NCBI RefSeq assembly: GCF_003130795.1
Contig: NZ_CP029354.1
Location: 372,001 to 436,000 of the forward strand
Origin: Azospirillum thermophilum
GTDB lineage: Bacteria; Pseudomonadota; Alphaproteobacteria; Azospirillales; Azospirillaceae
Length of the DNA stretch: 64,000 bases
Direction: 5' to 3'
Part shown: positions 1-13,027 of the stretch, piece after piece
Layout of the letters: each line of letters begins with the position of its first letter
Position numbering within the stretch: the stretch's first letter is position 1
Notes under the pieces: model-generated
Databases searched by the model: none
Told to the model about the DNA's origin: nothing
What the model saw: only the letters and a program-made list of their open reading frames with translations
Made by a program: the position numbers and the translations under genes

Positions 1-391
1 CCCGGGTAAACAGATCCCCCGGACCCTGGGAGTACAGGTTGCCGATCGGCGACGGGTTGTTCGCGGCGCTGTTCACCGCCTGCCAGCCATGGTTGTGGGC
101 CGGAATCTGCGCGGTGGTCAACGTCACCGTCTCGCTGCCGCCCTTCTGACCCATATTGTAATGGCTGAGCGGCCCGATGGTCGCCGCATTGGTGTACTGC
201 CCGACCGGAACCCGCCCGCGCAGGTCCGGAAGATTGAAATTCTGCGTGTCCTTACCGTAATAGTTGCCGACCAGCGAAAAGAGAGCGGCATTCTGCTGGA
301 TCGGCAGCGACTGGCCGTTGCAGCTCGCCCAGTTCTGTGGCGCGTAATCGAAGGCATTGATTCGGATTTCTCCGATAAACGGATCGGTCAT
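1..391 (-). CDS. Phage tail collar domain protein (MdpB-like), C-terminus cut by window edge
   Basis: The gene starts at an ATG at 391 read leftwards, preceded by a strong GGAGGA ribosome binding site, and stays open to base 1, so only about 130 N-terminal residues are present. It begins MTDPFIGEIR and carries the collar-domain signature NFNLPDLRGRVPVG near residue 61 and the motif QIPAHNH near residue 104. This is typical of the microcystin-dependent/tail-collar family, small secreted or tail-tip-like proteins whose cellular role is poorly known. It diverges from the lasso-peptide genes. Nothing else phage-like is visible, so it need not belong to a prophage. The family is clear; the function is not. 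Confidence 0.85.
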   Translation of the reverse strand, partial: MTDPFIGEIRINAFDYAPQNWASCNGQSLPIQQNAALFSLVGNYYGKDTQNFNLPDLRGRVPVGQYTNAATIGPLSHYNMGQKGGSETVTLTTAQIPAHNHGWQAVNSAANNPSPIGNLYSQGPGDLFTR

Positions 392-773
392 GGCGTCCTC
401 CTTCCCCAATCCCGTGGGACATCACCCGAACTGGTGTGTCACCGGACAGGAGGACATCAGAGTACACAAGTCCGGCAAAGCGATTTTGCCCGCCTGTTAC
501 AATTCGTCATATGATCAACGGGCCTATCATACCATTGAATGCGTTGGTGGATTTTGTTGCATACACTTGAATGTCATTGATCAATTCTTAGTAGATGTTG
601 CTAAAAATGAGCATCCTGCGGGTGCCGCATCCATGTGCGACTCGGGGAATGCGGGAGAATGCATCCCCTCCCGCTCCGGATGGCGACATGTCGACGGGAG
701 CGGTCCGCGATGAGGATGTCCGTCACACATAGAGTTACCCGCGACGGCATCGTTCGGGGTAAGGTGACGCATC
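392..773. promoter_or_regulatory. Divergent intergenic region between collar protein and lasso cluster
   Basis: This is 382 bp without a supportable gene. It must hold the promoters of both the leftward collar gene and the rightward kinase gene. The part at about 510-620 is clearly more AT-rich than the surrounding DNA, as expected for promoter DNA. I could not fix -35 and -10 boxes with confidence. Confidence 0.4.
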
Positions 774-1730
774 ATGCCGACCCTGTCCCGCCCCGCCCCC
801 GGCCTTCTGCCTTCGACCGACGACCGCATGCTGTGCGGCTGGCGGGTCGCGAGCGCTCTGCGTCTGCCCGATCTGCTGCCATGGACCGGTGACGGCCGTG
901 CTCCCGATCTGGTCATCGATCTGGGGCCGGTGCCGGACCGGCTGGACGATCCGGTCATCGACCACGCGCTGCTCCAGGTCGCCGCCGACGGCGCCTGCCG
1001 CTTCGCCATACCGGACGTTGCCGCCTTTCTGATCGACCCGGCCGGCCGGCATGTGACCGTCGATCCGGCGCTGCCGCCGGAGACGCCGGACATCCGCGTC
1101 TTCCTCCTCGGCACGGTGTTCGGCATCCTGTGCTACCGGCGCGGGCTGCTGCCGCTCCACGCCAGCTGCGTGCGGGTCGGCGACGGGGCGGTGGCGCTCG
1201 CCGGGCCTTCGGGCATCGGGAAATCCACGCTCGCCGCGGCGCTGGTGCGGCAAGGCCATGCGATGCTGGCCGACGACGTGACCGTCCTCGACGTCGTCGG
1301 ACCGGGAGGGCCGCGGGTGCTGCCCGCCTTTCCCCGGTTGAAGCTGTGGCGGGACGCTTTGGCGCGCATGGGCCGGAATGCCGACGGGCTGGAGCGCAGC
1401 CGCGCGGAGCTCGACAAGTTCCATCTGCCCGTCACCGACGCCTTCTGCCCGGAACCGCTGCCGCTGCGCGCCGTGTTCCATCTGGAAGCGGCACGGCACG
1501 GGGATGGCGACGGCCTGCGCCGCCTGAGGGGGCCGGAGGCGGTGGCGCGGATGGGGCGCGATCTCTACCGTGGCGGATTGATGATGCGGCTGGGCCTGAC
1601 CGGACGCGCGCTGCCGGCCATGGTGACGGCGGCCGGCGCGCGGGACGGGACCTGGGCCGTGGCGCACGGGCACGGACCGGGCGGACTGGACCGGAGCATC
1701 GCCGGAATCCTCGACCGGCTGCCGACATGA
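774..1730 (+). CDS. HprK-like kinase of lasso-peptide cluster (PadeK/ThcoK type)
   Basis: This 318-residue protein has a P-loop GPSGIGKST at residues 144-152, preceded by LPLHAS and followed by ADDVTVLD, the layout of HPr kinase/phosphorylase relatives without the N-terminal HPrK domain. In paeninodin-type lasso clusters such kinases phosphorylate the C-terminal Ser of the precursor. The precursor encoded downstream here also ends in Ser, so that role is likely. The stop overlaps the start of the sulfotransferase (ATGA), so the two are translationally coupled. The ATG at 774 follows a GGGGTAAGG stretch. Kinase family is well supported; the substrate is inferred from context. Confidence 0.8.
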   Translation: MPTLSRPAPGLLPSTDDRMLCGWRVASALRLPDLLPWTGDGRAPDLVIDLGPVPDRLDDPVIDHALLQVAADGACRFAIPDVAAFLIDPAGRHVTVDPALPPETPDIRVFLLGTVFGILCYRRGLLPLHASCVRVGDGAVALAGPSGIGKSTLAAALVRQGHAMLADDVTVLDVVGPGGPRVLPAFPRLKLWRDALARMGRNADGLERSRAELDKFHLPVTDAFCPEPLPLRAVFHLEAARHGDGDGLRRLRGPEAVARMGRDLYRGGLMMRLGLTGRALPAMVTAAGARDGTWAVAHGHGPGGLDRSIAGILDRLPT

Positions 1731-2575
1731 CCGGCTTCTACTGGGTCGTCTCCTACCCGAAATCGGGGAACACATGGCTGCGGCTGGCATTGCGCGCGCT
1801 GCTCCACCCCGATCGCGGAGCCGGCCCGCTCGATGCCACGGGCTTCGCCCCCGACGCCAGCCAGCGCACCGACATCGAGGAGGCGCTGGACGTGGAGAGC
1901 GGCGATCTGACGCCGGCCGAACTCGGGCGCCTGCGGCCGCAGGCCTATCGCGCCCTGGCCGCGACGGCGACCCGGCCGCTGTTCCGCAAGGTCCATGACG
2001 CGCAGTCCGGCACGGCGGACGGGCCGCTGTTCCCGCCGGAGGTGACGCTCGGCACGCTGTATGTCGTCCGCGACCCGCGCGATGTCGTGGTGTCCTGGGC
2101 TCATTTCGCCGGCGTCGGACTGGACGAGGCGATCGCGATGCTCTGTGATCCCGCGGCCGTCCTGCAGGCCCCGGCAGGGCGGCCGGCATTGACCCTGCCC
2201 CAGCGGCTGGGCTGTTGGAGCAGCCATGTCCGGAGCTGGCTGGATGCGCCCGGCCGCTCCTGCTGCCTGCTGCGCTACGAGGACATGCTGGCCGATCCCG
2301 CCGCCGTGTTGCGCCGCGCCGCCCTCTACGCCGGCATTCCCCACGGCGAGGCGGACATCCGCAATGCCGTCGCCCTGACCCGTTTCGACGCGCTGCGGGA
2401 GCGGGAGGAGGCGCACGGGTTCGACGGCGGACAGTCCGGCGGCGTTCCCTTCTTCCGCAGCGGACGCGCCGGCCAATGGCGCACAGCGCTCAGTCCGGAG
2501 CAGGCCGGGCGGGTATGGGACGTCCACCGGGAGATGATGACGAGGATCGGCTACATCGCGGATGGATGGGCTTGA
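1727..2575 (+). CDS. PAPS-dependent sulfotransferase in lasso cluster
   Basis: This 282-residue protein begins MTGFYWVVSYPKSGNTWLR, the 5'-phosphosulfate-binding loop of the Sulfotransfer_1 family at residues 9-18. VRDPRDVVVSW near residue 108 matches the 3'-phosphate binding motif. The C-terminal half has the usual RYEDM segment. Such enzymes transfer sulfate from PAPS to a hydroxyl or amine. The gene overlaps the kinase gene by 4 bp and lies 56 bp ahead of the precursor, so the lasso peptide (Thr, Ser or a modified residue) is the obvious candidate substrate, although this is inference. The start at 1727 is fixed by the overlap and by the P-loop lying next to the N-terminus. Confidence 0.85.
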   Translation: MTGFYWVVSYPKSGNTWLRLALRALLHPDRGAGPLDATGFAPDASQRTDIEEALDVESGDLTPAELGRLRPQAYRALAATATRPLFRKVHDAQSGTADGPLFPPEVTLGTLYVVRDPRDVVVSWAHFAGVGLDEAIAMLCDPAAVLQAPAGRPALTLPQRLGCWSSHVRSWLDAPGRSCCLLRYEDMLADPAAVLRRAALYAGIPHGEADIRNAVALTRFDALREREEAHGFDGGQSGGVPFFRSGRAGQWRTALSPEQAGRVWDVHREMMTRIGYIADGWA

Positions 2576-2631
2576 AGTCGCTTTTTCGCCATGATACATG
2601 GGTAATCCGAGTGGATGAGGGTGGAAGCGCC

Positions 2632-2802
2632 ATGAATCAGGACGTTCAGAACGGTACGCGGACAGAAACCGGCGCAGGCGGCCGTGCCCCGTGGCGCGCC
2701 CCGACCCTTACCGAATACGACATCGCGTCCAGCACCGAAGGAACGAACTGCGGGAACGGGTCGGACGGGTTCATTACCTTCTGCCTGATTGCGCCGTCCT
2801 GA
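2632..2802 (+). CDS. Lasso peptide precursor (paeninodin-like), 56 aa
   Basis: The leader contains WRAPTL (residues 21-26) followed by EYDIASST, which matches the WxxPxL...D[IV]xxxT pattern of PadeA-family precursors recognised by the RRE protein B1. Thr35 sits at leader position -2, so the core is predicted to begin at Gly37 and run to Ser56, 20 residues. Core Gly1 and Asp9 (Asp45) can form the macrolactam; core Cys4 and Cys15 (residues 40 and 51) could form a disulfide; the C-terminal residue is Ser, the site phosphorylated in paeninodin. A GAGGGTGGAAG ribosome site precedes the ATG. The leader cut and ring residue are predictions from pattern only. Confidence 0.8.
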   Translation: MNQDVQNGTRTETGAGGRAPWRAPTLTEYDIASSTEGTNCGNGSDGFITFCLIAPS

Positions 2803-2803
2803 C

Positions 2804-2834
2804 CCTCCGACCGTTCGGCCAGCTATCGGAGAGG
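2804..2834 (+). promoter_or_regulatory. Inverted repeat just after the precursor stop
   Basis: CTCCGA at 2805-2810 pairs with TCGGAG at 2826-2831, extended by flanking C/G pairs, and begins immediately after the precursor TGA. It has no T run, so it is more likely an mRNA-stabilising or attenuating hairpin that raises precursor message over the downstream enzymes than a terminator. The rest of the 165-bp gap to the radical SAM gene shows nothing else. Confidence 0.35.
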
Positions 2835-2967
2835 GCGCGCGCAGGATCGTGACCGGACACTTCATGCGGCTCTCTTCCGACGCCGATGGCTTGCCAGTGA
2901 TGCACTTGCCAGCGATGCAAGGGGTTGCACGACGGGGCGCCGGAACAGTCGGTCACGGGATGCGGCC

Positions 2968-4464
2968 ATGCCCCACGATGTGACGCTCGTCGATGCCGGG
3001 GTGATAGCGGGCTACCGGGATTTCATGCCGGTCGGCCCCCTTTACCTTGCCTCCGCTCTGGCTGCGCGGGGGCGGCGCGTCGAGTTCGCCGATCTCCGTT
3101 CGTCCGGCAGCCCCTTCGATTTCCAGTCCATGGCCGACCTGTTCGAGGCGGCCGATTCGCCCGTCATAGGCGTGTCCCTGCTCGGCAACTCCCTGCCGGT
3201 GGCATTGGCCGCCTCGCGCGAATACCGCCGGCGGGGCGGCGGCAAGACGATCGTGTTCGGCGGCCCCGGCCCCAACGGCGTCGAGTCGCGGCTGCTGGAG
3301 CGGTTTCCCGAAGTCGACATCGTGGTGCGCGGGGAGGGGGAGGTCGTTTTCCCGGACCTGCTGGACGCGCTGGAGCGCAAGGCCTCGCCGGCGGCGCCCG
3401 GTGTCGTCTTCCGCGATGCGGACGGCAACATCCAGGGCAGCCAGCCGCAGCGCATCGCCGACATCGACGCCCTTCCATGGCCCGACCGGTCGCTCGCGGC
3501 GCACAACCGTTTCTCGGAGACGGCACTTCTCACCGCACGCGGCTGCCCCTTCACCTGCTCCTTCTGCGACATCATCGCGATGTGGGGACGCAGCGTCGGC
3601 TACCGCGCGCTCGACGACGTGGTGCGGGAGGCCGCGGCCATCACGGCCAGCGGGTTCGGCCATTTCAACATCATCGACGACACCTTCACGGTGAACCGCA
3701 AGCGCGTGCTCGCCTTCTGCCGCGCGCTGCGCGCGGAAGGGCTGACGGCGCGATGGAGCTGCTTTGCCCGCATCGATCTCGTCGACGGCGACCTGCTGGA
3801 CGAGATGGCGGCGGCCGGCTGCGACACGATCTTCTATGGCGTCGATTCCTCGACCGAGGACGGCTGGAAGAAGATCAACAAGAAGCTGACGCGGGACATG
3901 GTGATCGACACCATCGGGCAGACGCTGAAGCGCTGCAACGTCACCCCGTCCCTGATCTGGGGCTATCCCTTCGAGACCTTCGCGGATTTCTGCTCGACGG
4001 TCGAGCTTGCCTACGACCTTGCGATGCTGGCCGGGTCGTCCCCGCATCGCATCAACGTCCAGACACACTTCCTGGCGCCGGAGCCCGCCACCCCGCTGTT
4101 CGAGGAGTACGGCCACACCGTCAGGTTCGGGGAAACCATGCCTCTGTCCTTCTTCGAAGGCAGCCCGCTGAAGGCCTTCTCCGCCTGCGCGGGCTATGCC
4201 GAGTGCCTGGAGCTGGTCCGCAGCGACCCCGTGCTTTTCGCCCCGTTCCACTTCTATCCGTCGGAACGGCTGCTGGAGAAACTGCTGGTCATGCAGGGTG
4301 CGCCGGGGCTTCCGGGCCATGCCGGCGCAGCGGACGACGGACAGCCCTGCGGCGACGGACGGGACGTCGCGACCCTTGCGCGGAAGATGCGCTTCGTCCG
4401 CTCGATCAAGCCACGGTTCCGGAAGGCGAAGCCGGCGCCGGAACTGCAGGCCACGCCCCGGTGA
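2968..4464 (+). CDS. B12-binding-domain radical SAM enzyme in lasso cluster
   Basis: This 498-residue protein has an N-terminal cobalamin-binding-like Rossmann domain (about residues 1-150, with GPGPNGVESRLLERFPEVD and RGEGE) and a radical SAM domain with CxxxCxxC at Cys193, Cys197 and Cys200 (GCPFTCSFC), which holds the 4Fe-4S cluster. This architecture matches class B radical SAM enzymes, many of which methylate or rearrange unactivated carbons. The gene lies between the precursor and the lasso cyclase, and its stop is 4 bp before the cyclase ATG, so it is probably a tailoring enzyme of the lasso peptide. The exact reaction cannot be read from the sequence. The start at 2968 is weakly supported by its ribosome site. 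Confidence 0.85.
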   Translation: MPHDVTLVDAGVIAGYRDFMPVGPLYLASALAARGRRVEFADLRSSGSPFDFQSMADLFEAADSPVIGVSLLGNSLPVALAASREYRRRGGGKTIVFGGPGPNGVESRLLERFPEVDIVVRGEGEVVFPDLLDALERKASPAAPGVVFRDADGNIQGSQPQRIADIDALPWPDRSLAAHNRFSETALLTARGCPFTCSFCDIIAMWGRSVGYRALDDVVREAAAITASGFGHFNIIDDTFTVNRKRVLAFCRALRAEGLTARWSCFARIDLVDGDLLDEMAAAGCDTIFYGVDSSTEDGWKKINKKLTRDMVIDTIGQTLKRCNVTPSLIWGYPFETFADFCSTVELAYDLAMLAGSSPHRINVQTHFLAPEPATPLFEEYGHTVRFGETMPLSFFEGSPLKAFSACAGYAECLELVRSDPVLFAPFHFYPSERLLEKLLVMQGAPGLPGHAGAADDGQPCGDGRDVATLARKMRFVRSIKPRFRKAKPAPELQATPR

Positions 4465-4468
4465 CCCG

Positions 4469-6547
4469 ATGACGCCTCCTCTCCGGACAAGGGCGGGCGG
4501 CCATGGGTCGGCGCTTGCCGGCGTCGTCGCGGCTGATGCGATGCCCGACCTGATCCGCGCGCTGTCCACGCAGGTCGGCCCCTCCGTCTCCCTTGGCCCG
4601 ATCCGGCTGTTCGGATCGTCGGGCAGGCTGCGCAGCGATGTCCGGGGGGCCATTCTCGGCCTCGACGGCCGCATCGACAATGCCGCCGAACTGCGGCGGA
4701 GTTTCGAGGCCCGTGGTCCCGCGTCCGACGATGCGTCGCTTGCCCTCGATGCGCTCTCGCGCTGGGGAGCCGATGCGCCCGCCCGGTTCCGCGGCGCCTT
4801 CGCCCTGGCCTATTGGGAGGAGGAGGCGGGGCGGCTCCTGCTCGCCGGGGATCACCTCGGCCTGAAGACGGTGTTCCACGCGCGGATCGACGGGGCCCTG
4901 GTCTTCTCCACCAGCCTGCGTGTCCTTCTCGCCCTGCCGGGCCTGCCGCGGGACCTGGACGAGGCCTATCTGGCCGCCTTCCTCTCCGACGTGGTGCCGG
5001 AGCCGGACGCCACCCTCTACGCCGCCATCCGCCGCGTCCCGTCCGCCTGCACGGCGACCTTCCGTCCGGATGGGTCCCCGGTCATCGGCGAGTATTGGCG
5101 GCCGGATTGGGACCGCCGCATCCGCCACCGCGACGACGACACCTATGTGGAGGAGGCGCGCGCCCTGCTGGACCAGGCGGTGCGCCGCCAGCTGCACGGC
5201 CCCGGTCCGGTCGTCTGCCAGCTGAGCGGCGGCTTCGATTCCGGCGCGGTCGCGGCCACCGCCGCCCGCCTGTGCGCGCCCGCCGTCGTCCATGCGCTGA
5301 CCGCCGCCCCGCCCGACGGCGTGCCGCGGTTCGAGCACCCCGCGCTGATCACCGACGAGCGTGCCGCGGCGGCGGCGGTCGCGCGGATGCATCCGAACAT
5401 GGCGTGGGAAGCGGTGGCATCCGCCACGCTGCATCCGCTCGACGAGAACCCGTTGCGCCTCTTCCTGCCGCTGGGCATGCCGACCCGCAACGTGCTGAAC
5501 ATCGGTTGGTTCGCGCCATCGATGGACCGCGCCCGCGCGCTGGGTGCCCGGGCGGTGCTCGGCGGCTATCTCGGCAACATGACGCTGAGCTGGGACGGGC
5601 TCTGCGGCCTCGCCTCCATGGCACGGCGCGGCGACTGGCTCCGCCTGTGGCGGGAGGCGACGGCGCTGGGCCGGCGCCATGGCCTGTCCGCCGCGACGAT
5701 CCTGCGTCGTCATGCGCTGAAACCGCTGTTGCCGCCGCACCTGCAACGCCGCTGGGACGACCATCGCGGCGCCCCGCGGCCGGAGAGCGAACGCTACGGC
5801 GCCATCAATCCCGAATTCGCCCGGTCCGTCGGCATGGACGAACGGCGGCTGGCCATGGGCAACGATTATCCTGGCGATACGGACACCATGCGCCGCCGCT
5901 GGATGAGCCGAGTGCAGACCCTGCCGCCGGTGATGGGTGCGATGGGCGAGCTGTTCGGGGTCGAGATGCGCGACCCGACCGCCGACATCGACCTGCTGGA
6001 ATTCTGCTTCGCCGTGCCGGACGAACAGTATCTGCGCGATGGCCAGACCCGCTGGCTTGCCCGGCGCGTGCTGGCCGACCGGCTGCCTCCGGAGGTGCTG
6101 AACGAGCAGCGGCGCGGTTTCCAGTGCCCCGAGTTCCTGCACCGCCTGACCCTGCAGCGTGACGCGATCGTCGAGGGGGTGGAGGCTCTGGACCGCTCGC
6201 CGCTCGCCTCCCGCGTGCTGGACGTGGCGCGCATGAAGCGGCTGGCGGCCGACTGGCCGACCGACGCGGCGGCCACCGGGTTCGGCGAGTATGGCGCGGT
6301 TCTGCACCGCGGGCTGCATGTCGGCCGCTTCCTGCGCTGGATCGAAGGGGGAACCAATGAGGCGGGCGGTCGTCTGGATCATGATCGGCCTGCTGGCCCT
6401 GCTGGCCGCCGGCGGAGCCCTGATGGCGGTGGAGCCGAAGGCCCAGGCCATCGCCCTCCACGTGGCGCACCGGGTGGTCCGCAAGGTGCAGAACCTGATC
6501 GACCCGCCCCAGTCGCTCGCCGCCGTCCGCTACCGCCTGTTCGATAA
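4469..6547 (+). CDS. Lasso cyclase (asparagine synthetase-like, C protein); stop probably displaced
   Basis: The protein has an N-terminal glutaminase-like domain without the catalytic Cys2 (it begins MTPPLRTR) and an ATP-PPase domain with SGGFDS at residues 253-258. This is the architecture of lasso macrolactam synthetases, which adenylate the ring Asp/Glu side chain and join it to the core N-terminus. As written the frame runs to 6547 and overlaps the next gene by 191 bp with an Arg/Pro/Gly-rich tail that looks like shadow sequence. One extra G in the G5 run at 6347-6351 would end the protein as ...EGGNQ at the TGA at 6358-6360, giving the usual ATGA overlap and about 630 residues. I consider that the real end. 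Confidence 0.85.
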   Translation: MTPPLRTRAGGHGSALAGVVAADAMPDLIRALSTQVGPSVSLGPIRLFGSSGRLRSDVRGAILGLDGRIDNAAELRRSFEARGPASDDASLALDALSRWGADAPARFRGAFALAYWEEEAGRLLLAGDHLGLKTVFHARIDGALVFSTSLRVLLALPGLPRDLDEAYLAAFLSDVVPEPDATLYAAIRRVPSACTATFRPDGSPVIGEYWRPDWDRRIRHRDDDTYVEEARALLDQAVRRQLHGPGPVVCQLSGGFDSGAVAATAARLCAPAVVHALTAAPPDGVPRFEHPALITDERAAAAAVARMHPNMAWEAVASATLHPLDENPLRLFLPLGMPTRNVLNIGWFAPSMDRARALGARAVLGGYLGNMTLSWDGLCGLASMARRGDWLRLWREATALGRRHGLSAATILRRHALKPLLPPHLQRRWDDHRGAPRPESERYGAINPEFARSVGMDERRLAMGNDYPGDTDTMRRRWMSRVQTLPPVMGAMGELFGVEMRDPTADIDLLEFCFAVPDEQYLRDGQTRWLARRVLADRLPPEVLNEQRRGFQCPEFLHRLTLQRDAIVEGVEALDRSPLASRVLDVARMKRLAADWPTDAAATGFGEYGAVLHRGLHVGRFLRWIEGGTNEAGGRLDHDRPAGPAGRRRSPDGGGAEGPGHRPPRGAPGGPQGAEPDRPAPVARRRPLPPVR

Positions 6548-7046
6548 GGCGACGGCCGCGGTCATCGGTCCGCCCGGAGTGCCGGACGAGGCATCGGGCA
6601 TCGTCGTCTTCATCGACTACAACTGCATCTTCTGCCGCCGCCAGTTCCAGGTCTTCGAGGCCATGGCGGCGGAAGGACGCCCGCCGCGGGTCATCCTGCG
6701 CCACCTGCCGCACTCGGTCGACTCCATCGCCCTGGCCCAGGCCCTGCTCGCGGCACGGCAACAGGGCGGCGCCGAGGCACTGCATCGCGTGATGGCGGCG
6801 GCCGACCAGCCGCTCGGCCCCGGTGACCTGCCGGACCTCGCCCGCGCGGCGGGGCTCGACCCCGAGCGGCTGCGCGCGGATGCCGCCTCGCCGGAGATCG
6901 AGGCCCTGCTCGACGGCGACGTGAAGCTGGCCTGGAGCCTGCGCATCGAGAGTACGCCGACCATGGTGGTCGGGACCGAGCTGCGGCGCGGCGTGCAGAG
7001 CGGCGATGCGCTCGCGGCCCTGACGGCTGCCGCGGCCGGCCGCTGA
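6357..7046 (+). CDS. Membrane-anchored DsbA-like thiol oxidoreductase
   Basis: This 229-residue protein has one N-terminal membrane segment (about residues 3-25), then a thioredoxin-fold DsbA-like domain with CIFC at Cys90-Cys93 and a later ESTPTM loop that provides the cis-Pro. The catalytic domain is expected in the periplasm. The gene follows the cyclase by an apparent ATGA overlap and is the last gene of the rightward lasso block. Because the predicted core peptide has two cysteines, an oxidase or isomerase for a core disulfide is the attractive role, but this is inferred only from context. The ATG at 6357 is preceded by GAAGGGGGAA. There is no DsbB partner in the window. Confidence 0.8.
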   Translation: MRRAVVWIMIGLLALLAAGGALMAVEPKAQAIALHVAHRVVRKVQNLIDPPQSLAAVRYRLFDKATAAVIGPPGVPDEASGIVVFIDYNCIFCRRQFQVFEAMAAEGRPPRVILRHLPHSVDSIALAQALLAARQQGGAEALHRVMAAADQPLGPGDLPDLARAAGLDPERLRADAASPEIEALLDGDVKLAWSLRIESTPTMVVGTELRRGVQSGDALAALTAAAAGR

Positions 7047-7056
7047 GAGAGCCTCT

Positions 7057-7478
7057 TCAGCTCTTTCCCGGCCGGATGACCGCCAGCGGGGTCATGCCGA
7101 CCGCCGCCGGCCCGCCGCAGACGGTACCGCCGGCCGCGGTCAGCCAGGCATGGGCACGGAAGCCGCGGCCACCGCCTACCGCCACGCCGATGCACAGGCT
7201 GCAGGGAATGCCGCGGCGGCGCAGCAGGATCGCCGCGGCAAGGGCCTGCTCCAGGCACAGCGGGTGCCAGGGCAGCCGGCGGGCAGCCGCCTCGACGGCG
7301 CGGCCGACCGCTGCGGCCAGCGGATCCGGCGTGGGGGAGGGCAGGGCTCCGCCGTGCTTTCCGCCCGCCCGGCCAGCCGGACCACCATGCGGAACGGCAG
7401 AACCGCCAGAAGGCTGCTCACGAGCGTCAAAGCCGCCGCGGCTTCCACCACGCGCAGGCGGTGGAGGAGCCTCGTCAT
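7057..7478 (-). CDS. Lasso leader peptidase B2 (transglutaminase-like), apparent frameshift
   Basis: The N-terminus (MTRLLHRLRVVEAAAALT..., start 7478) and the C-terminal catalytic part (PLCLEQALAAAILLRRRGI and FRAHAWL) lie in different frames. Joined, they give a normal B2 cysteine protease of the Transglut_core3 family with catalytic Cys in CLEQ and His in HAW. The switch falls near a G5 run at 7333-7337 (C5 on the coding strand); one more base restores a single frame. The start overlaps the B1 stop (ATGA at 7475-7478). B2 removes the leader after the RRE protein presents it. I favour a sequencing under-call over a real mutation, because B1, the cyclase and the precursor are preserved. Confidence 0.75.
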
Positions 7479-7780
7479 TCCGTAACCGAAACCAGTTTGC
7501 GGTCGGCCATGCGGCCCAGCAGATCCAGCACGTCACGTTCGATCTGCATGGGATCGCCGTCATAGTCGGCGACGAGGCAAGCGCACAGGTCGGACACGCG
7601 GACCGCGGTCTCCATCCGTCGCCAGATGTCGGCGCCGATGGGGTCCAGACCGAAATAGAGCCCCTGCTCGACGCTCATCAGGACGAGTTCGCCATCCACC
7701 ACGGCCGCCAGGACCTCGTCGTTGCGCACCACCGTCGCCGAAGGACCCACGGACCGTTCAACCATGATGACGCGCTCCAC
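7475..7780 (-). CDS. Lasso RRE protein B1 (PqqD family)
   Basis: This 101-residue protein has the PqqD/RRE pattern: a beta-strand N-terminus (VVRNDEVLAAVVDGELVLMSVEQGLYFGLDPIGADIW) followed by helices (VSDLCACLVADYDGDPMQIERDVLDLLGRMADRKLV). Such proteins bind the WxxPxL part of the leader and hand the precursor to B2. It is translationally coupled to the B2 gene by a 4-bp overlap. The B1-B2 pair is convergent with the precursor-cyclase genes, so it has its own promoter somewhere in 7781-8242. The assignment is secure. Confidence 0.85.
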   Translation of the reverse strand: MERVIMVERSVGPSATVVRNDEVLAAVVDGELVLMSVEQGLYFGLDPIGADIWRRMETAVRVSDLCACLVADYDGDPMQIERDVLDLLGRMADRKLVSVTE

Positions 7781-8242: not shown

Positions 8243-9868
8243 ATGTCCGTTCTGATCACGCTTTTCGCCGGGCTCGGCTTCATCTTCATCGGCACACAGT
8301 TCCTGACCGCCAACATGAAACAGGTGGTCGGCGCCCGCTTCCACAAGCTGGTGGCGCGGGCGACCGGACATCCGGTGAAGGCGGCGGCGGTCGGCGTCGC
8401 CGCCGGGGCGGTGATCCAAAGCACAAACGCCGTCACCTTCATCGTCGTCAGCCTGATCGGCGCCGGGGCCGCGACCGTGCGCGAGGCGATGCCCATCGTC
8501 ACCTGGTCCTATGCCGGCTCCACCCTGCGCCTGCTGCTCGCCTCGCTCGACCTCGGCACCGCGGTGATGCTGGCGGTCGGGCTGATCGGCATGGCCTTCC
8601 TGCTGGGCTACGACCGTTCGGCCAAGCACCGCCATCTCGTGGCGGCGCTGCTGGGCCTGGTCCTGCTGCTCTACGGCGTGCAGCTGATGAACCAGGCGGC
8701 GGTGCCGCTGCGCCAGTCGGAGTGGCTGCGCGGCGTGCTGGCCTTCGCCGACCGCTTCTATTTCTGGGGGTTCCTGGCCGGGACGCTGCTGGCCTCGGTG
8801 ATCCAGGGGCAGACCGTGTCGGTCATCGCGGTGGCGCTCGCCGATGGCGGGCTGCTCGGGCTCGACCAGACGATCCTGGTGGTGATCGGCGCCAATCTCG
8901 GCACCGGCATCCAGGCGCTGATCCAGGGGGCCGGGCTGAAGGGAACCAGCCGCCAGCTCAACCTCTACCAGCTCGTCCTCAAGCTGATCGGCGTCGCGGT
9001 GCTGCTGCCGCTGCTGACGGCCGAGCATTATGCCGGGCTGCCGGGGGTGAAGGCGGCGGTCGGGCTGCTGACGCAGGACGTCGCCTTCCAGGTGACCGCC
9101 GTGCACTGGGCCTTCCAGATCGTGTCGGCCCTGGTGGCGAGCGTCCTCAACAGGCCGCTCTACCGGGTGATCGAGCGGATGAGCCCGCCGACCGGCGAGG
9201 AGATCCTGTCCCGTCCGGAGCACATCGACGGCCGGGCCGCGGTCCAGCCGCTGGCGGCGCTGTCGATGGTGGAGCAGGAGCAGGCCCGCCTGCTGCACCG
9301 GCTTCCCGACTTCCTGGCCGGCGTGCGCGAGGATGCTTCCGCCCGCCCGCTGGCTCCCGCCCCGGTCCTGCGCTCGGCCGGGAACGAACTGGCCCGCGCC
9401 ATCGACGCCTTCCTGAAGAGCACGCTGCAGACGCCGATGCCGCCGGAGGAACTCGACCGGCTGATGCGCCGCTGGAACTGCAACGAGCTTCTGCTCGGGC
9501 TGCAGGACGCGCTGGCGGAGCTGGCCACCACGCTGGAGAAGGTCCGCCGCAATCCCGAGGTCGCCCGCATCGCCGACGGCATGGCGGAATCGCTGCACAT
9601 GATGCTGCTGACGCTCGCCGAGGAGGCCGACCCCGCGCATGCGGCCGGGCCGGCGATGCTGGAAACGCTGACCGCCGACCGCTCCGCCCTGATGCGGCGC
9701 ATCCGCGAGGACTTGACGGAGCGTCTGCCCGACCTGCCCGTCGCCGACCGGCAGGCGGTGTGGCGGGCGACCGACCTGTTCGAGCGGCTGACCTGGCTGA
9801 TGCGCCGCTATGCCGTGAACCTGCCGCGGCCGGCCGAAGACCCCGCATCCCCCATGGCCGGGGCGTGA
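8243..9868 (+). CDS. Na/Pi-cotransporter II family protein with PhoU-like tail
   Basis: This 541-residue protein has two inverted membrane repeats of the NptA/PNaS family. Each repeat carries a Gln-Ser/Thr-rich signature (VIQSTNAVTF near residue 56, and VIQGQTVSV near residue 188), followed by about 220 soluble residues of PhoU-like helices from about residue 320. Members import phosphate with sodium or are tied to phosphate sensing; the substrate is not certain because the usual QSSS signature is altered to QSTN and QGQT. It is a single gene flanked by intergenic DNA on both sides. The ATG at 8243 begins directly with a membrane helix. Confidence 0.8.
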   Translation: MSVLITLFAGLGFIFIGTQFLTANMKQVVGARFHKLVARATGHPVKAAAVGVAAGAVIQSTNAVTFIVVSLIGAGAATVREAMPIVTWSYAGSTLRLLLASLDLGTAVMLAVGLIGMAFLLGYDRSAKHRHLVAALLGLVLLLYGVQLMNQAAVPLRQSEWLRGVLAFADRFYFWGFLAGTLLASVIQGQTVSVIAVALADGGLLGLDQTILVVIGANLGTGIQALIQGAGLKGTSRQLNLYQLVLKLIGVAVLLPLLTAEHYAGLPGVKAAVGLLTQDVAFQVTAVHWAFQIVSALVASVLNRPLYRVIERMSPPTGEEILSRPEHIDGRAAVQPLAALSMVEQEQARLLHRLPDFLAGVREDASARPLAPAPVLRSAGNELARAIDAFLKSTLQTPMPPEELDRLMRRWNCNELLLGLQDALAELATTLEKVRRNPEVARIADGMAESLHMMLLTLAEEADPAHAAGPAMLETLTADRSALMRRIREDLTERLPDLPVADRQAVWRATDLFERLTWLMRRYAVNLPRPAEDPASPMAGA

Positions 9869-9976: not shown

Positions 9977-12900
9977 ATGAAACTCGCAGTTCGCGGCCTG
10001 ACGGGCGCGTTGCTGGCTTCCGCGGCATTCTTCGGCCCGCTCCCCGGACCCGCCCTGGCGCAGACCATCGGCGATCCGGCCTCCTTCGTCACCGCGGAAT
10101 ATCTCGCCGACCACGGGCTCGCCCTGTCCAATGCGGCGCAGGCCTACGCGCTGGGCTTCACCGGAAAGGGCGTGATCGTCGGCGTGATCGACACCGGGCT
10201 CGACACCAGCCATCCGGAGTTCGCCGGCAAGATCGCGGTGGGCGGGCAGGACCTGCTCTACGGCGTGCCGATGACCGACCGCGACGGGCATGGCACCCAT
10301 GTCGCCGGCACGATCGCCGCAGCGCGCGACGGGATCGGCATGCATGGCGTCGCCTTCGACGCCCGCGTCATCCCCTTCCGGTCGATCCGCGGCCGCGGCG
10401 ACACCGAGACCCAGCTTCCCAACGACGTCAGCGCGACCACCCGCGGGATCGACGCCGCCGTGGCGGCCGGCGCCCGCGTCATCAACGGCAGCTACGGGCC
10501 GTCCTTCTACGACGAGGCCTACCCGAACACCGCCCAGATGATCGGCCCGTCCGACGCGGCCGAGGCGCAGGCGCTGATCCGCGCGGCACGCGCCGGCGTG
10601 GTCGGCGTGTTCGCCGCCGGCAACGAGTACACCGACAATCCCGTCATCAACCGCAACCCGACCGGCAGCGCCTTCCTGCCCTATGTCCGGCCGTCCAACC
10701 GCGACAGCGGCGTCTATGTGACGGTGGATGACGACGGCGACCCGACCGAGGCGAACTACGACTTCTCGGAACTGGAGGGGATGGTGGTGGCGGTCGCCTC
10801 GGTCGACCGCAACAAGCGGATCTCCTGGTTCAGCAACCGCTGCGGCGTCGCGCGGAACTGGTGCCTCGTCGCCTTCGGCGGCGGTGCCGCGGGCGAGAAC
10901 CAGCCGTCGACCGCCGACGACGTGCTGTCGGCCAAGGCCGGAGGCGGCTATTTCACGACCTACGGCACCTCGATGGCGAGCCCGCACGTCGCGGGCGGCA
11001 TCGCCGTGCTGATGGAGGCCTTCCCCGGCCTGTCCGCCCGCGACATCGTCTACATCCTGCTGAACACGGCGGAGGATCTGGGCGCCCCCGGCGTGGACGA
11101 GATCTACGGCCACGGGCTGATGGACCTGGGCAAGGCGGTGCGCGGCCCGACCTCCTTCGCCGCGGGCGGCTTCACCACCATCACCGTCGCCAACGGGTCT
11201 GGCGCCACCTTCGCCAACGACATCTCCGGCACCGGCGGGCTGATCAAGCAGGGCGCCGGCACCCTGACGCTGACCGGTGCCAACAGCTACACCGGGCTGT
11301 CGCAGGTGCAGGCCGGCACGCTGGCGGTCAACGGCACGGTGGCCGGCGGGGTCACCGTCTCGCAGGGCGCCACGCTGCGCGGCACCGGGCGGGTCGACGG
11401 CGGCACGCTGGTGGCCGGCACGCTGGCACCCGGCAACTCGCCCGGCACGCTGACCGCCGGCGGCCCGGTGGAGCTCACCCGAACCGCCACCCTGGCGGTG
11501 GAGATCGACGGAACGGGCACCGGCAACGGCGCCGGCAACCACGACCGGCTGATCGTCACCGGGACCGGCGGCAGCTTCACCGCCGGCGGCACGATCGCGC
11601 CGGTCACCCGCGGGATCAGCGCGCCGGCCACCAACAGCTTCACCCCGACCCTCGGCCAGGGCTTCACGGTGGTGGAGGCGGCGGGCGGCGTGCTCGGCAG
11701 CTTCGGCGGCCTGACGCAGCCGACGAGCGGCCTGCCCGCCGGCACGCGGTTCGACGCCGTCTACGGCAGCAGGACGCTGACCCTGCGCGTCACCCCCGCC
11801 CGCTACGGCGACATCGCCGCCGCCGGCCTGACCGGCACGCGCAACCGCAATGCCGCGGGCGGCGCGCTCGATGCTGCCCGCCCGGTTGCCGGCACCCGGC
11901 CCGACGCGGCGGCCCAGCCGGTGTTCGACGCGCTCTACCCGCTGGCCGGCGAGGCGGTCGGCCAGGCGCTCGACCAGATCGGCGGCGCCATCCATGGCGA
12001 GGCGATGCAGGCCCAGCTCGGCGTCCGCCGCGCGGTCGGCGGCGCCATCGGCGACCGCCTCGCCCTGCTGCGCGACGGCAGCGCCGCGGCGCAGGCCTCG
12101 GCCGGCCTCGGCCGCGTCGGCGTCACCGGCCGGGGCGCCGCGGCGCTCGGCGTGGCGGAGGGCGGCCTGACGGAGCGCGGCGGAGCGGAAGGTGCCGGCG
12201 GCGACCGAGCCGCCTGGATCCGCGTGCTCGGCAGCTTCGGTTCGATCCGCGGCGACGGCAATGCGCCGGGCGTCAAGGCGCGCACCGGCGCGGCGCTGGT
12301 CGGTGCCGATGCCGAGGTCGCCCGGGGCGTGACGGCCGGCCTGGCGGTCGGCTACTCCCGGACCGACGCCGATGCCCGCAAGGGCGGCGGCTCCGTCACC
12401 ATCGACGGCTACCACGCCACGCTCTACGGGGCCGCCAGCGTCGGCAGCGCCTTCATCGAGGGGACGGCCGGCTACAGCTTCGACCGCTACGAGTCCTCGC
12501 GCCCGCTCTCCTTCGGCGGCTATTCCGCCGTGGCGTCGGGCAAGGCGGACGGGCACGACCTCTCGGCCTCGCTGACGGCCGGCACCCGCCTCACGGTGGA
12601 GGGAGTCACGGTGGAGCCCAGCGCCGGCCTGCGCGTCGACCGGCTGTTCCGCTCCGGCTTCGGCGAGCGGGGGGCCGGGCTGCTGAGCCTGTCGGTGGCG
12701 GACGAGACGCTGACCGCCGTCCGGTCCACCATCGGTGCCCGCGCCAACACGCTGGTGACGCTGGAGGACGGCACGGAGATCCGCCCGTCGCTGCGCCTGC
12801 ACTGGGCGCACGACCTCGCCGACCGCGGGGCGGAAACGCGGGCCGGCCTCGCCGCCGCCAGCTTCACCACTGCCGGCACGCGGGTCGGCCGCGACGCCGC

Positions 12901-13027
12901 CCTGATCGGCACCGGCGTCTCGGTCGGGCTGTCCGGCAGCCTGGCGCTCTACGCCGACTATGGCGCCGAACTGCGCCGCCACGCGGCCGACCACACGGTG
13001 GCGGCCGGCTTGAAGCTCGCCTGGTGA
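9977..13027 (+). CDS. Subtilisin-like autotransporter serine protease
   Basis: This 1016-residue protein has a signal peptide (residues 1-28, ending PALAQ) and a peptidase S8 domain with the triad Asp72 (VIDTGLD), His105 (DGHGTHVAG) and Ser332 (GTSMASPHVAGG). One autotransporter-associated beta-strand repeat follows (GGLIKQGAGTLTLTGANSYTG, about residues 415-450), then a C-terminal beta-barrel of about 270 residues. It should be secreted by the type V route and display or release the protease at the cell surface. The gene stands alone, convergent with the peptidase operon, which could consume the peptides it makes; that link is inference. The ATG follows a GAGGTAGG ribosome site. Confidence 0.9.
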   Translation: MKLAVRGLTGALLASAAFFGPLPGPALAQTIGDPASFVTAEYLADHGLALSNAAQAYALGFTGKGVIVGVIDTGLDTSHPEFAGKIAVGGQDLLYGVPMTDRDGHGTHVAGTIAAARDGIGMHGVAFDARVIPFRSIRGRGDTETQLPNDVSATTRGIDAAVAAGARVINGSYGPSFYDEAYPNTAQMIGPSDAAEAQALIRAARAGVVGVFAAGNEYTDNPVINRNPTGSAFLPYVRPSNRDSGVYVTVDDDGDPTEANYDFSELEGMVVAVASVDRNKRISWFSNRCGVARNWCLVAFGGGAAGENQPSTADDVLSAKAGGGYFTTYGTSMASPHVAGGIAVLMEAFPGLSARDIVYILLNTAEDLGAPGVDEIYGHGLMDLGKAVRGPTSFAAGGFTTITVANGSGATFANDISGTGGLIKQGAGTLTLTGANSYTGLSQVQAGTLAVNGTVAGGVTVSQGATLRGTGRVDGGTLVAGTLAPGNSPGTLTAGGPVELTRTATLAVEIDGTGTGNGAGNHDRLIVTGTGGSFTAGGTIAPVTRGISAPATNSFTPTLGQGFTVVEAAGGVLGSFGGLTQPTSGLPAGTRFDAVYGSRTLTLRVTPARYGDIAAAGLTGTRNRNAAGGALDAARPVAGTRPDAAAQPVFDALYPLAGEAVGQALDQIGGAIHGEAMQAQLGVRRAVGGAIGDRLALLRDGSAAAQASAGLGRVGVTGRGAAALGVAEGGLTERGGAEGAGGDRAAWIRVLGSFGSIRGDGNAPGVKARTGAALVGADAEVARGVTAGLAVGYSRTDADARKGGGSVTIDGYHATLYGAASVGSAFIEGTAGYSFDRYESSRPLSFGGYSAVASGKADGHDLSASLTAGTRLTVEGVTVEPSAGLRVDRLFRSGFGERGAGLLSLSVADETLTAVRSTIGARANTLVTLEDGTEIRPSLRLHWAHDLADRGAETRAGLAAASFTTAGTRVGRDAALIGTGVSVGLSGSLALYADYGAELRRHAADHTVAAGLKLAW

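Follow-up and report, generated by a model that had tools for sequence, protein, structure and literature searches.

The 64,000-nucleotide stretch of Azospirillum thermophilum DNA studied here (called the window throughout), part of a 605,262-base contig in a genome of 6.78 Mb and nine contigs, carries at positions 774 to 7780 a set of genes that we hold, with moderate confidence, to be a lasso peptide cluster of a small alphaproteobacterial family, with a gene for a cobalamin (B12)-binding radical S-adenosyl-L-methionine (SAM) enzyme added between those for the precursor and the cyclase, and with tailoring reactions that would follow a definable order. As read from the aligned precursors, the core of this family consists of a ring I/G-T-N-C-G-x-G-x-D-G, two Cys residues and a C-terminal Ser, and the product is likely a lasso peptide with one disulfide, a C-terminal phospho-Ser, an O-sulfate (Thr2 favored) and a C-methyl group. 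While the gene set, its motifs, the conserved core and the lack of the radical SAM gene in two sister clusters are read from the sequences themselves, we infer from them each reaction, its site and its place in the order, as well as the gain of the radical SAM gene here as opposed to its loss by the sisters.

All genes that a preliminary description of this DNA had named, those typical of lasso peptides and the additional ones alike, are encoded in this region, as judged from Pfam and NCBIfam profile matches and, in the case of the precursor, from homologues. Six genes are located on the plus strand, and the genes for the B2 leader peptidase and for B1, a recognition element for ribosomally synthesized and post-translationally modified peptides (RiPPs), converge on them from the minus strand:

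774 to 1730, plus strand: HprK-like kinase, with the last Ser of the precursor as its predicted target (PF07475, 34.6 bits; cut-off 33.3)
1727 to 2575, plus strand: sulfotransferase of the 3'-phosphoadenosine-5'-phosphosulfate (PAPS) type (PF00685, 77.7 bits)
2632 to 2802, plus strand: lasso precursor of 56 amino acids (homologues P0121, 89%; L098, 58%; L129, 46%)
2740 to 2799, plus strand: predicted core GTNCGNGSDGFITFCLIAPS (Thr at −2; ring of nine residues closed at Asp9; Cys4 and Cys15; Ser as the last residue)
2968 to 4464, plus strand: B12-binding radical SAM enzyme, with peptide C-methylation as its predicted reaction (PF04055, 63.7 bits; PF02310, 54.3 bits)
4469 to 6547, plus strand: lasso cyclase of the Asn-synthetase type (PF00733, 90.9 bits, above its cut-off; NF033535, 210.9 bits, under its cut-off of 525)
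6357 to 7046, plus strand: DsbA-like thiol oxidoreductase (PF01323, 46.8 bits; hydrophobic N-terminus, CIFC and TPT motifs)
7057 to 7478, minus strand: B2 leader peptidase, split in two frames, with 7563-7057 as the frame of the catalytic part (PF13471, 83.9 bits; NF033537, 82.3 bits, cut-off 33)
7475 to 7780, minus strand: B1, a PqqD-like RiPP recognition element (RRE), identified as such through PF05402 (61.1 bits; NF033536, 57.3 bits, under its cut-off of 80)

The genes had been thought to follow each other in a compact order coupled by ATGA overlaps. This holds for the kinase and sulfotransferase genes, which share the ATGA at 1727-1730, but not elsewhere: gaps of 4 to 165 nucleotides are present (56 between the sulfotransferase and precursor genes, 165 between those for the precursor and the radical SAM enzyme, four between the latter and the cyclase gene), and B1 and B2 are encoded on the other strand. 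Searches for Rfam families and for terminator-like sites gave no match, and the single promoter-like site equals the chance expectation.

In the order of reactions that we propose, B1 would bind the leader, the HprK-like kinase would transfer phosphate to the terminal Ser of the still linear precursor, the neighboring sulfotransferase would sulfate a hydroxyl, most likely that of Thr2, and the radical SAM enzyme would methylate a carbon in the Phe-containing loop, with Phe11 or Phe14 favored. B2 would then cut after the residue following the conserved Thr, the cyclase would join residue 1 to Asp9, and the DsbA-like protein would help to form a Cys4-Cys15 disulfide that ties the ring to the tail in a class III-like manner.

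The precursor matches no Pfam or NCBIfam family. We aligned four sequences, namely those of the window, P0121, L098 and L129. Constant in their leaders are W..P.L..YDI and the Thr at position −2, and invariant in all four cores are T2, N3, C4, G5, G7, D9, G10, I12, the Cys of the tail and the terminal Ser, within the pattern G/I-T-N-C-G-N/S-G-S/A-D-G. Each of the four thus has the Thr at −2 and, with Asp9, an acidic residue within the core positions 7-9 that mark a lasso precursor. The sequence fits a nine-residue ring closed at Asp9, with one Cys in the ring, one in the tail, and a C-terminal Ser of the kind used by lasso kinases; Cys4 and Cys15 would suit a class III lasso peptide with one predicted ring-tail disulfide. 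The loop after the ring reads F-I-T/N-F-C in the window and in P0121 and V-I-C in L098 and L129; that of the window hence contains Phe and is two residues longer than in the latter pair. Among the core hydroxyls, invariance is limited to T2 and the terminal Ser. The comparison with PadeA made in the preliminary description holds for this terminal Ser alone.

Twenty-nine related loci were searched with the window proteins (tblastn, 1e-5). Eleven stem from the genus, where 12 of 45 genomes, the window's included, have a PF13471 match, and 18 surround cyclases similar at E 1e-60 from ten other genomes among 385 of the class, with at most three candidates scored per genome in this search, as in the class- and phylum-wide searches for the radical SAM enzyme. 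Not all of these loci are proven lasso clusters, given that L134, L138-L142 and L146 match the cyclase alone and that L108, without a match at 1e-5, was counted as negative. HprK homologues are present in 21 of the 29 (10/11 genus, 11/18 class) and sulfotransferase homologues in 13 (5/11 and 8/18), each time together with HprK and in 12 of the 13 loci adjacent to it on one strand; these fractions are not population frequencies, because the loci were picked by cyclase similarity or PF13471. DsbA homologues occur in two loci only, L098 and L129, and the radical SAM enzyme in none of the 29. In one class locus (L130, 898-19498, genome G361), three HprK-sulfotransferase pairs and three Asn-synthetase-type cyclases are found within 19.5 kb; this combination probably represents stacked lasso clusters.

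The two loci with DsbA are the sister clusters of the window. L098, from the same genus, shares with it the kinase (67% identity), sulfotransferase (63%), precursor (58%), cyclase (75%) and DsbA-like protein (67%), and L129, from the class sample, does so at 64, 65, 46, 70 and 58%, respectively. Both have the same succession of kinase, sulfotransferase, precursor, cyclase and DsbA genes with convergent B2 and B1 genes, and a near-identical ring (ITNCGSGSDG); they differ from the window in lacking the radical SAM gene, in their V-I-C instead of F-I-x-F-C loop and in a B2 encoded in one frame. Since the kinase and the sulfotransferase accompany homologous precursors in two further genomes, we regard both as members of the cluster, as the preliminary description had proposed for all additional enzymes. 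The same conservation extends to DsbA, while for the radical SAM enzyme the proposal stands only in part, its gene being absent from all 29 other loci. Because HprK and sulfotransferase are common among the relatives and the sister layouts are alike without it, the radical SAM enzyme is the one new part of the window's cluster.

Among the points in favor of the proposed disulfide is the count of core Cys residues in loci with and without DsbA. A precursor hunt by pattern and judgement yielded 24 matches in the related loci, comprising those of L098 and L129, 16 that we accepted and six that we discarded. Two core Cys are present in both DsbA loci and in none of the 16 plausible precursors, which were drawn from 13 of the 27 loci without DsbA; one of the 16, in L135, has a single Cys, and the other 14 DsbA-less loci gave no accepted candidate. 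All 16 end in Ser and the six discarded candidates do not, so that this count may lean toward Ser through the selection itself.

The HprK-like kinase carries LHAS at 128, GPSGIGKST at 144 and ADDV at 166. By our own residue matching, these would fit the His-Lys-Asp-Asp motif described for lasso kinases (PMC9266682). HprK family membership, fitting residues and a Ser-ending precursor together are those expected of a putative lasso tailoring kinase of the PadeK/ThcoK/SyanK type. The sulfotransferase belongs to the PAPS-dependent enzymes by its PF00685 match and its PAPS-binding motifs; it contains YPKSGNTW, KVHD, VRDPRDVVVS and RSGRAGQW. Its nearest solved structures are those of TEG12, Teg14 and StaL, which we take to be glycopeptide-antibiotic sulfotransferases, and two adenosine-5'-phosphosulfate kinases encoded in the same genome are present for PAPS supply.

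Thr2 is favored as the sulfate acceptor because it is the only invariant hydroxyl other than the terminal Ser. One could also imagine, and we consider this possible though doubtful, that the sulfotransferase modifies the C-terminal Ser or its phosphate instead of Thr2, with the kinase and the sulfotransferase forming a single C-terminal module; this and the two further alternatives weighed below do not exclude one another. Sulfation of a phosphate would give a labile anhydride, a chemical argument against the phosphate as acceptor, and the invariance of Thr2 in the four aligned precursors likewise points away from the Ser. The constant company of the two enzymes in the 13 sulfotransferase loci and the Ser ends of the accepted precursors in DsbA-less loci, with the leaning just mentioned, are what such a module would predict; for pseudomycoidin, passages of PMC9266682 describe the transfer of a hexose onto the phospho-Ser by PsmN. 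With Thr2 retained as the preferred site, the pairing turns the role of a sulfotransferase beside a lasso kinase into a testable question.

We assign the radical SAM enzyme probably to the peptide C-methylases, from sequence and model. An N-terminal B12-binding domain, the CxxxCxxC motif (CPFTCSFC at 193) and a methylase fold are those of class B (B12) radical SAM methyltransferases; the AlphaFold model, built with 21 sequences (mean predicted local distance difference test score 86.7), matches TsrM, MgmA, OxsB, TokK and CysS, and the dehydratase AprD4, which shares this fold, about equally. Its best NCBIfam model is ApyD (NF050148) with 187.9 bits, under the cut-off of 750, so that the protein falls outside the ApyD family as defined by that model. 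We found no clear compositional sign of a recent horizontal insertion and set this idea aside: the GC content at third codon positions is like that of the neighbors (0.884 against 0.879), even if the total GC is lower (0.680; sulfotransferase 0.718, cyclase 0.725).

We consider it unlikely that the enzyme, although encoded in the operon, acts on another small-molecule or lipid substrate and not on the lasso precursor. Its gene follows that of the precursor on the same strand and ends four nucleotides before the cyclase gene, with a similar third-position GC content; ApyD is its best family model; the loop F-I-x-F differs from the V-I of clusters without the enzyme; and a second association with a cyclase is probable. 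This last point concerns P0004 (61% to the radical SAM enzyme) and P0139 (66% to the cyclase), each of which is listed with two contigs, the longest of 7264 bases, and which for this reason probably share one contig. P0004 is one of seven close relatives (P0002-P0008, 53-79%) on short, presumably metagenomic contigs, among the 120 of 298 radical SAM matches listed; the protein searches for the two enzymes each scored the 8000 candidates with the most words in common.

Several observations weigh against the assignment of the radical SAM enzyme to the lasso peptide, or against its proposed reaction. For the other six close relatives no listed cyclase has a contig of equal length, and this includes the two longest contigs of 9116 and 12159 bases. 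At E 1e-70 the window's genome is the only one with a close homologue both among 82 genomes of the order (45 of them of the genus) and among 385 of the class. Pfam detects no PqqD/RRE domain on the enzyme, its gene deviates in total GC as given above, and methylation is not certain, because the fit of AprD4 to the model is about as good as that of the methylases. The Phe loop and the enzyme are seen together in one cluster, that of the window; P0121 shares the loop. The relatives of the enzyme, finally, are mostly found away from lasso genes, and the following surveys bear on this.

Among the best 80 of 435 loci with distant relatives (23-44% identity), some of them short contigs, L012 alone matched at least two of the five profiles for lasso-cluster genes; single matches were obtained in L010 and L013 (PqqD-like), L021 (HprK-like) and L050 (Asn-synthase-like). 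The profiles were trained on fetched loci that included L168, a part of the L012 cluster, and L012 had been found before with window proteins only. In the phylum, the enzyme matched in 38 of 398 genomes at 1e-45, with the next best at 256 bits against 761 and a single genome above 300 bits; of 19 loci taken one each from 19 of the 37 other matched genomes, 18 had no lasso-profile match and L204 an Asn-synthase-like one alone. No close homologue occurs in the two genomes of the order to which G138 belongs, none of 33 pattern matches in viral contigs is a relative, and the 17 matches in plasmid records are all below 60% identity, no lasso genes being listed in the two that were inspected. L007 and L008 were considered as lasso loci and dismissed, as the ten neighboring open reading frames scanned there contain no lasso genes and gave matches to cupin, radical SAM, DUF4037, protein kinase and IgGFc-binding families. 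Three genomes of the genus Tistrella likewise lack a close cyclase, even though proteins ascribed to Tistrella came up at 58-70% in the protein search; among plasmids, cyclase matches of 34-37% were obtained in two records of Tistrella mobilis. One of the plasmids, pRmeGR4a of Sinorhizobium meliloti GR4 (L147, 7631-12748; typed conjugative), carries two radical SAM genes side by side, of which the second is 30% identical to that of the window, followed by genes annotated as diaminopimelate decarboxylase and CPBP endopeptidase; Mesorhizobium loti (L148) has a comparable pair.

The part of the earlier proposal on the radical SAM enzyme that stands thus consists of the probable contig with P0004 and P0139 and of a second lasso cluster with B12-radical SAM-like genes, in the Desulfobacteraceae metagenome-assembled genome BB40 (contig JADGEQ010000034.1; L012 1-11300, L168 2372-13703). 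Here, genes for a cyclase, a sulfotransferase, an HprK-like kinase, a PqqD protein, a 673-amino-acid B12-radical SAM-like protein, a candidate precursor and a HemN-like radical SAM protein follow each other on one strand:

L168, 5511 to 7388: cyclase (NF033535, 376 bits, below its cut-off)
L168, 7401 to 8258: sulfotransferase (window comparison and our own profile, 3.6e-65; without a library model)
L168, 8255 to 9127: HprK-like kinase (window comparison and our own profile, 3.2e-20; without a library model)

The candidate precursor, picked by pattern, ends in TRTF followed by GGPHSNNDGEGIPTWS, with a C-terminal Ser. Adjoining genes encode B2 (NF033537, above its cut-off), an ABC transporter and an ApyD-like B12-radical SAM protein (142 bits; 30% to that of the window), and a second HprK-sulfotransferase pair lies nearby. 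Of the two B12-radical SAM-like genes in all, the one at the precursor has a RiPP C-methyltransferase as its best model (84 bits, below the cut-off), and the B12-binding matches of 24.4 and 24.7 are under the Pfam cut-off of 32.1. The cluster resembles that of the window in combining a lasso cyclase, B1, B2, an HprK-like kinase, a sulfotransferase and a B12-radical SAM-like gene beside a candidate precursor ending in Ser; it differs in the precursor sequence, in the other B12-radical SAM-like gene at the precursor, in the HemN-like protein and in the ABC transporter.

From these comparisons, we entertain tentatively a wider view: the window would encode a lasso peptide with four decorations (a disulfide between ring and tail, a (poly)phosphorylated last Ser, sulfate on a ring Thr and a radical C-beta-methylation of Phe in the loop), HprK and sulfotransferase would be a widespread proteobacterial pair, and B12-radical SAM enzymes would have been added at least two times independently, in the window and in the Desulfobacteraceae genome. 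If this is true, these would be the first lasso peptides known to us to be modified on an unactivated carbon by such an enzyme. In the open-access literature searched we found no sulfated or B12-radical SAM-modified lasso peptide, and in a 2026 review (PMC13352647) neither "sulfotransferase" nor "radical SAM" occurs. The sister clusters L098 and L129 offer a natural comparison, as their rings differ so little that mass shifts could tell the tailoring roles apart.

The view that the cluster of the window is intact finds no support in the assembly. The reading frame 7478-7176 contains the N-terminal part of B2 and the frame 7563-7057 the catalytic one, the profile matches starting only at positions 31 (PF13471) and 45 (NF033537) and thus covering the catalytic part alone. 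In L098 both parts are read together in one frame and in L129 both match in one frame; the genome has no second PF13471 match, which leaves the split gene as the sole copy found. The natural end of the cyclase is expected near 6360, and its frame runs on to 6547, about 60 residues into DsbA, whereas the L098 cyclase stops at the DsbA start with WIEGGNQ and P0139 ends in WVEGSNQ at the same residues. These findings, too, count against the cluster as we read it. It may be degenerate, with a mutated B2 and perhaps a mutated cyclase end, and yield no lasso peptide, an explanation to which we give some weight without favoring it. The sole B2 copy being in two frames and the missing cyclase end common to L098 and P0139 suit it, and so does an assembly that does not appear error-ridden, because a scan for frame switches over 344 kb of the genome gave only five suspect ones, among them the cyclase-DsbA junction. 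That scan missed the B2 split, however, and its controls (none in 175 kb) were underpowered, with a coding signal in 44% of the control bases against 76% in the genome itself. The other motifs checked are intact, and both anomalies would be frame slips of the kind that sequencing errors in base runs produce. Hence, the cluster is either decaying in this strain or affected by local assembly errors; since B2 is frameshifted in the assembly, production is doubtful and the strain may fail to make the peptide.

Outside of the cluster, a gene for a phage-tail-collar protein (1-395, minus strand; PF07484, 83 bits) is positioned upstream, and a similar gene start was seen by eye upstream in L098. On the other side, the translation of 9977-13027 (plus strand) resembles a protease of the subtilisin type that ends like an autotransporter and adjoins a Na/Pi cotransporter gene (8243-9868; PF02690).

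Returning to the reading that we prefer, a lasso cluster with an added B12-radical SAM enzyme, we compared it with described systems. A sulfotransferase is not new to lasso clusters: passages of PMC4289311 note HPr kinase and/or sulfotransferase genes in lasso clusters of Gram-positive bacteria, their role being called unclear in 2014, and HprK-type and sulfotransferase genes in lasso clusters are also noted in PMC8498205. Being frequent in related loci as well, the sulfotransferase beside HprK is ruled out as an exotic element. The Gram-positive clusters share both enzyme types with the window, and those passages mention neither a radical SAM enzyme nor DsbA. With regard to the disulfide, PMC9266682 states that those of class I lasso peptides form without their oxidoreductase, a point against the role proposed for the DsbA-like protein. 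ApyD of aminopyruvatide biosynthesis is a B12-radical SAM enzyme like that of the window and works on a RiPP precursor, on which it makes C-beta-methyl-Tyr according to PMC10635010; it possesses an RRE, and its pathway includes a cytochrome P450 and a multinuclear non-heme iron-dependent oxidative enzyme, whereas the window's enzyme has no RRE by Pfam and belongs to a lasso cluster. The proteobacterial HprK-containing clusters (SyanK of Sphingobium yanoikuyae) and, in Firmicutes, those for paeninodin (PadeK) and pseudomycoidin (PsmK/PsmN) combine the lasso core genes with an HprK-like kinase and a Ser-ending precursor (PMC9266682, PMC8498205); the window shares these features and, unlike them, also has a sulfotransferase, a DsbA-like protein, two core Cys residues and a B12-binding radical SAM enzyme.

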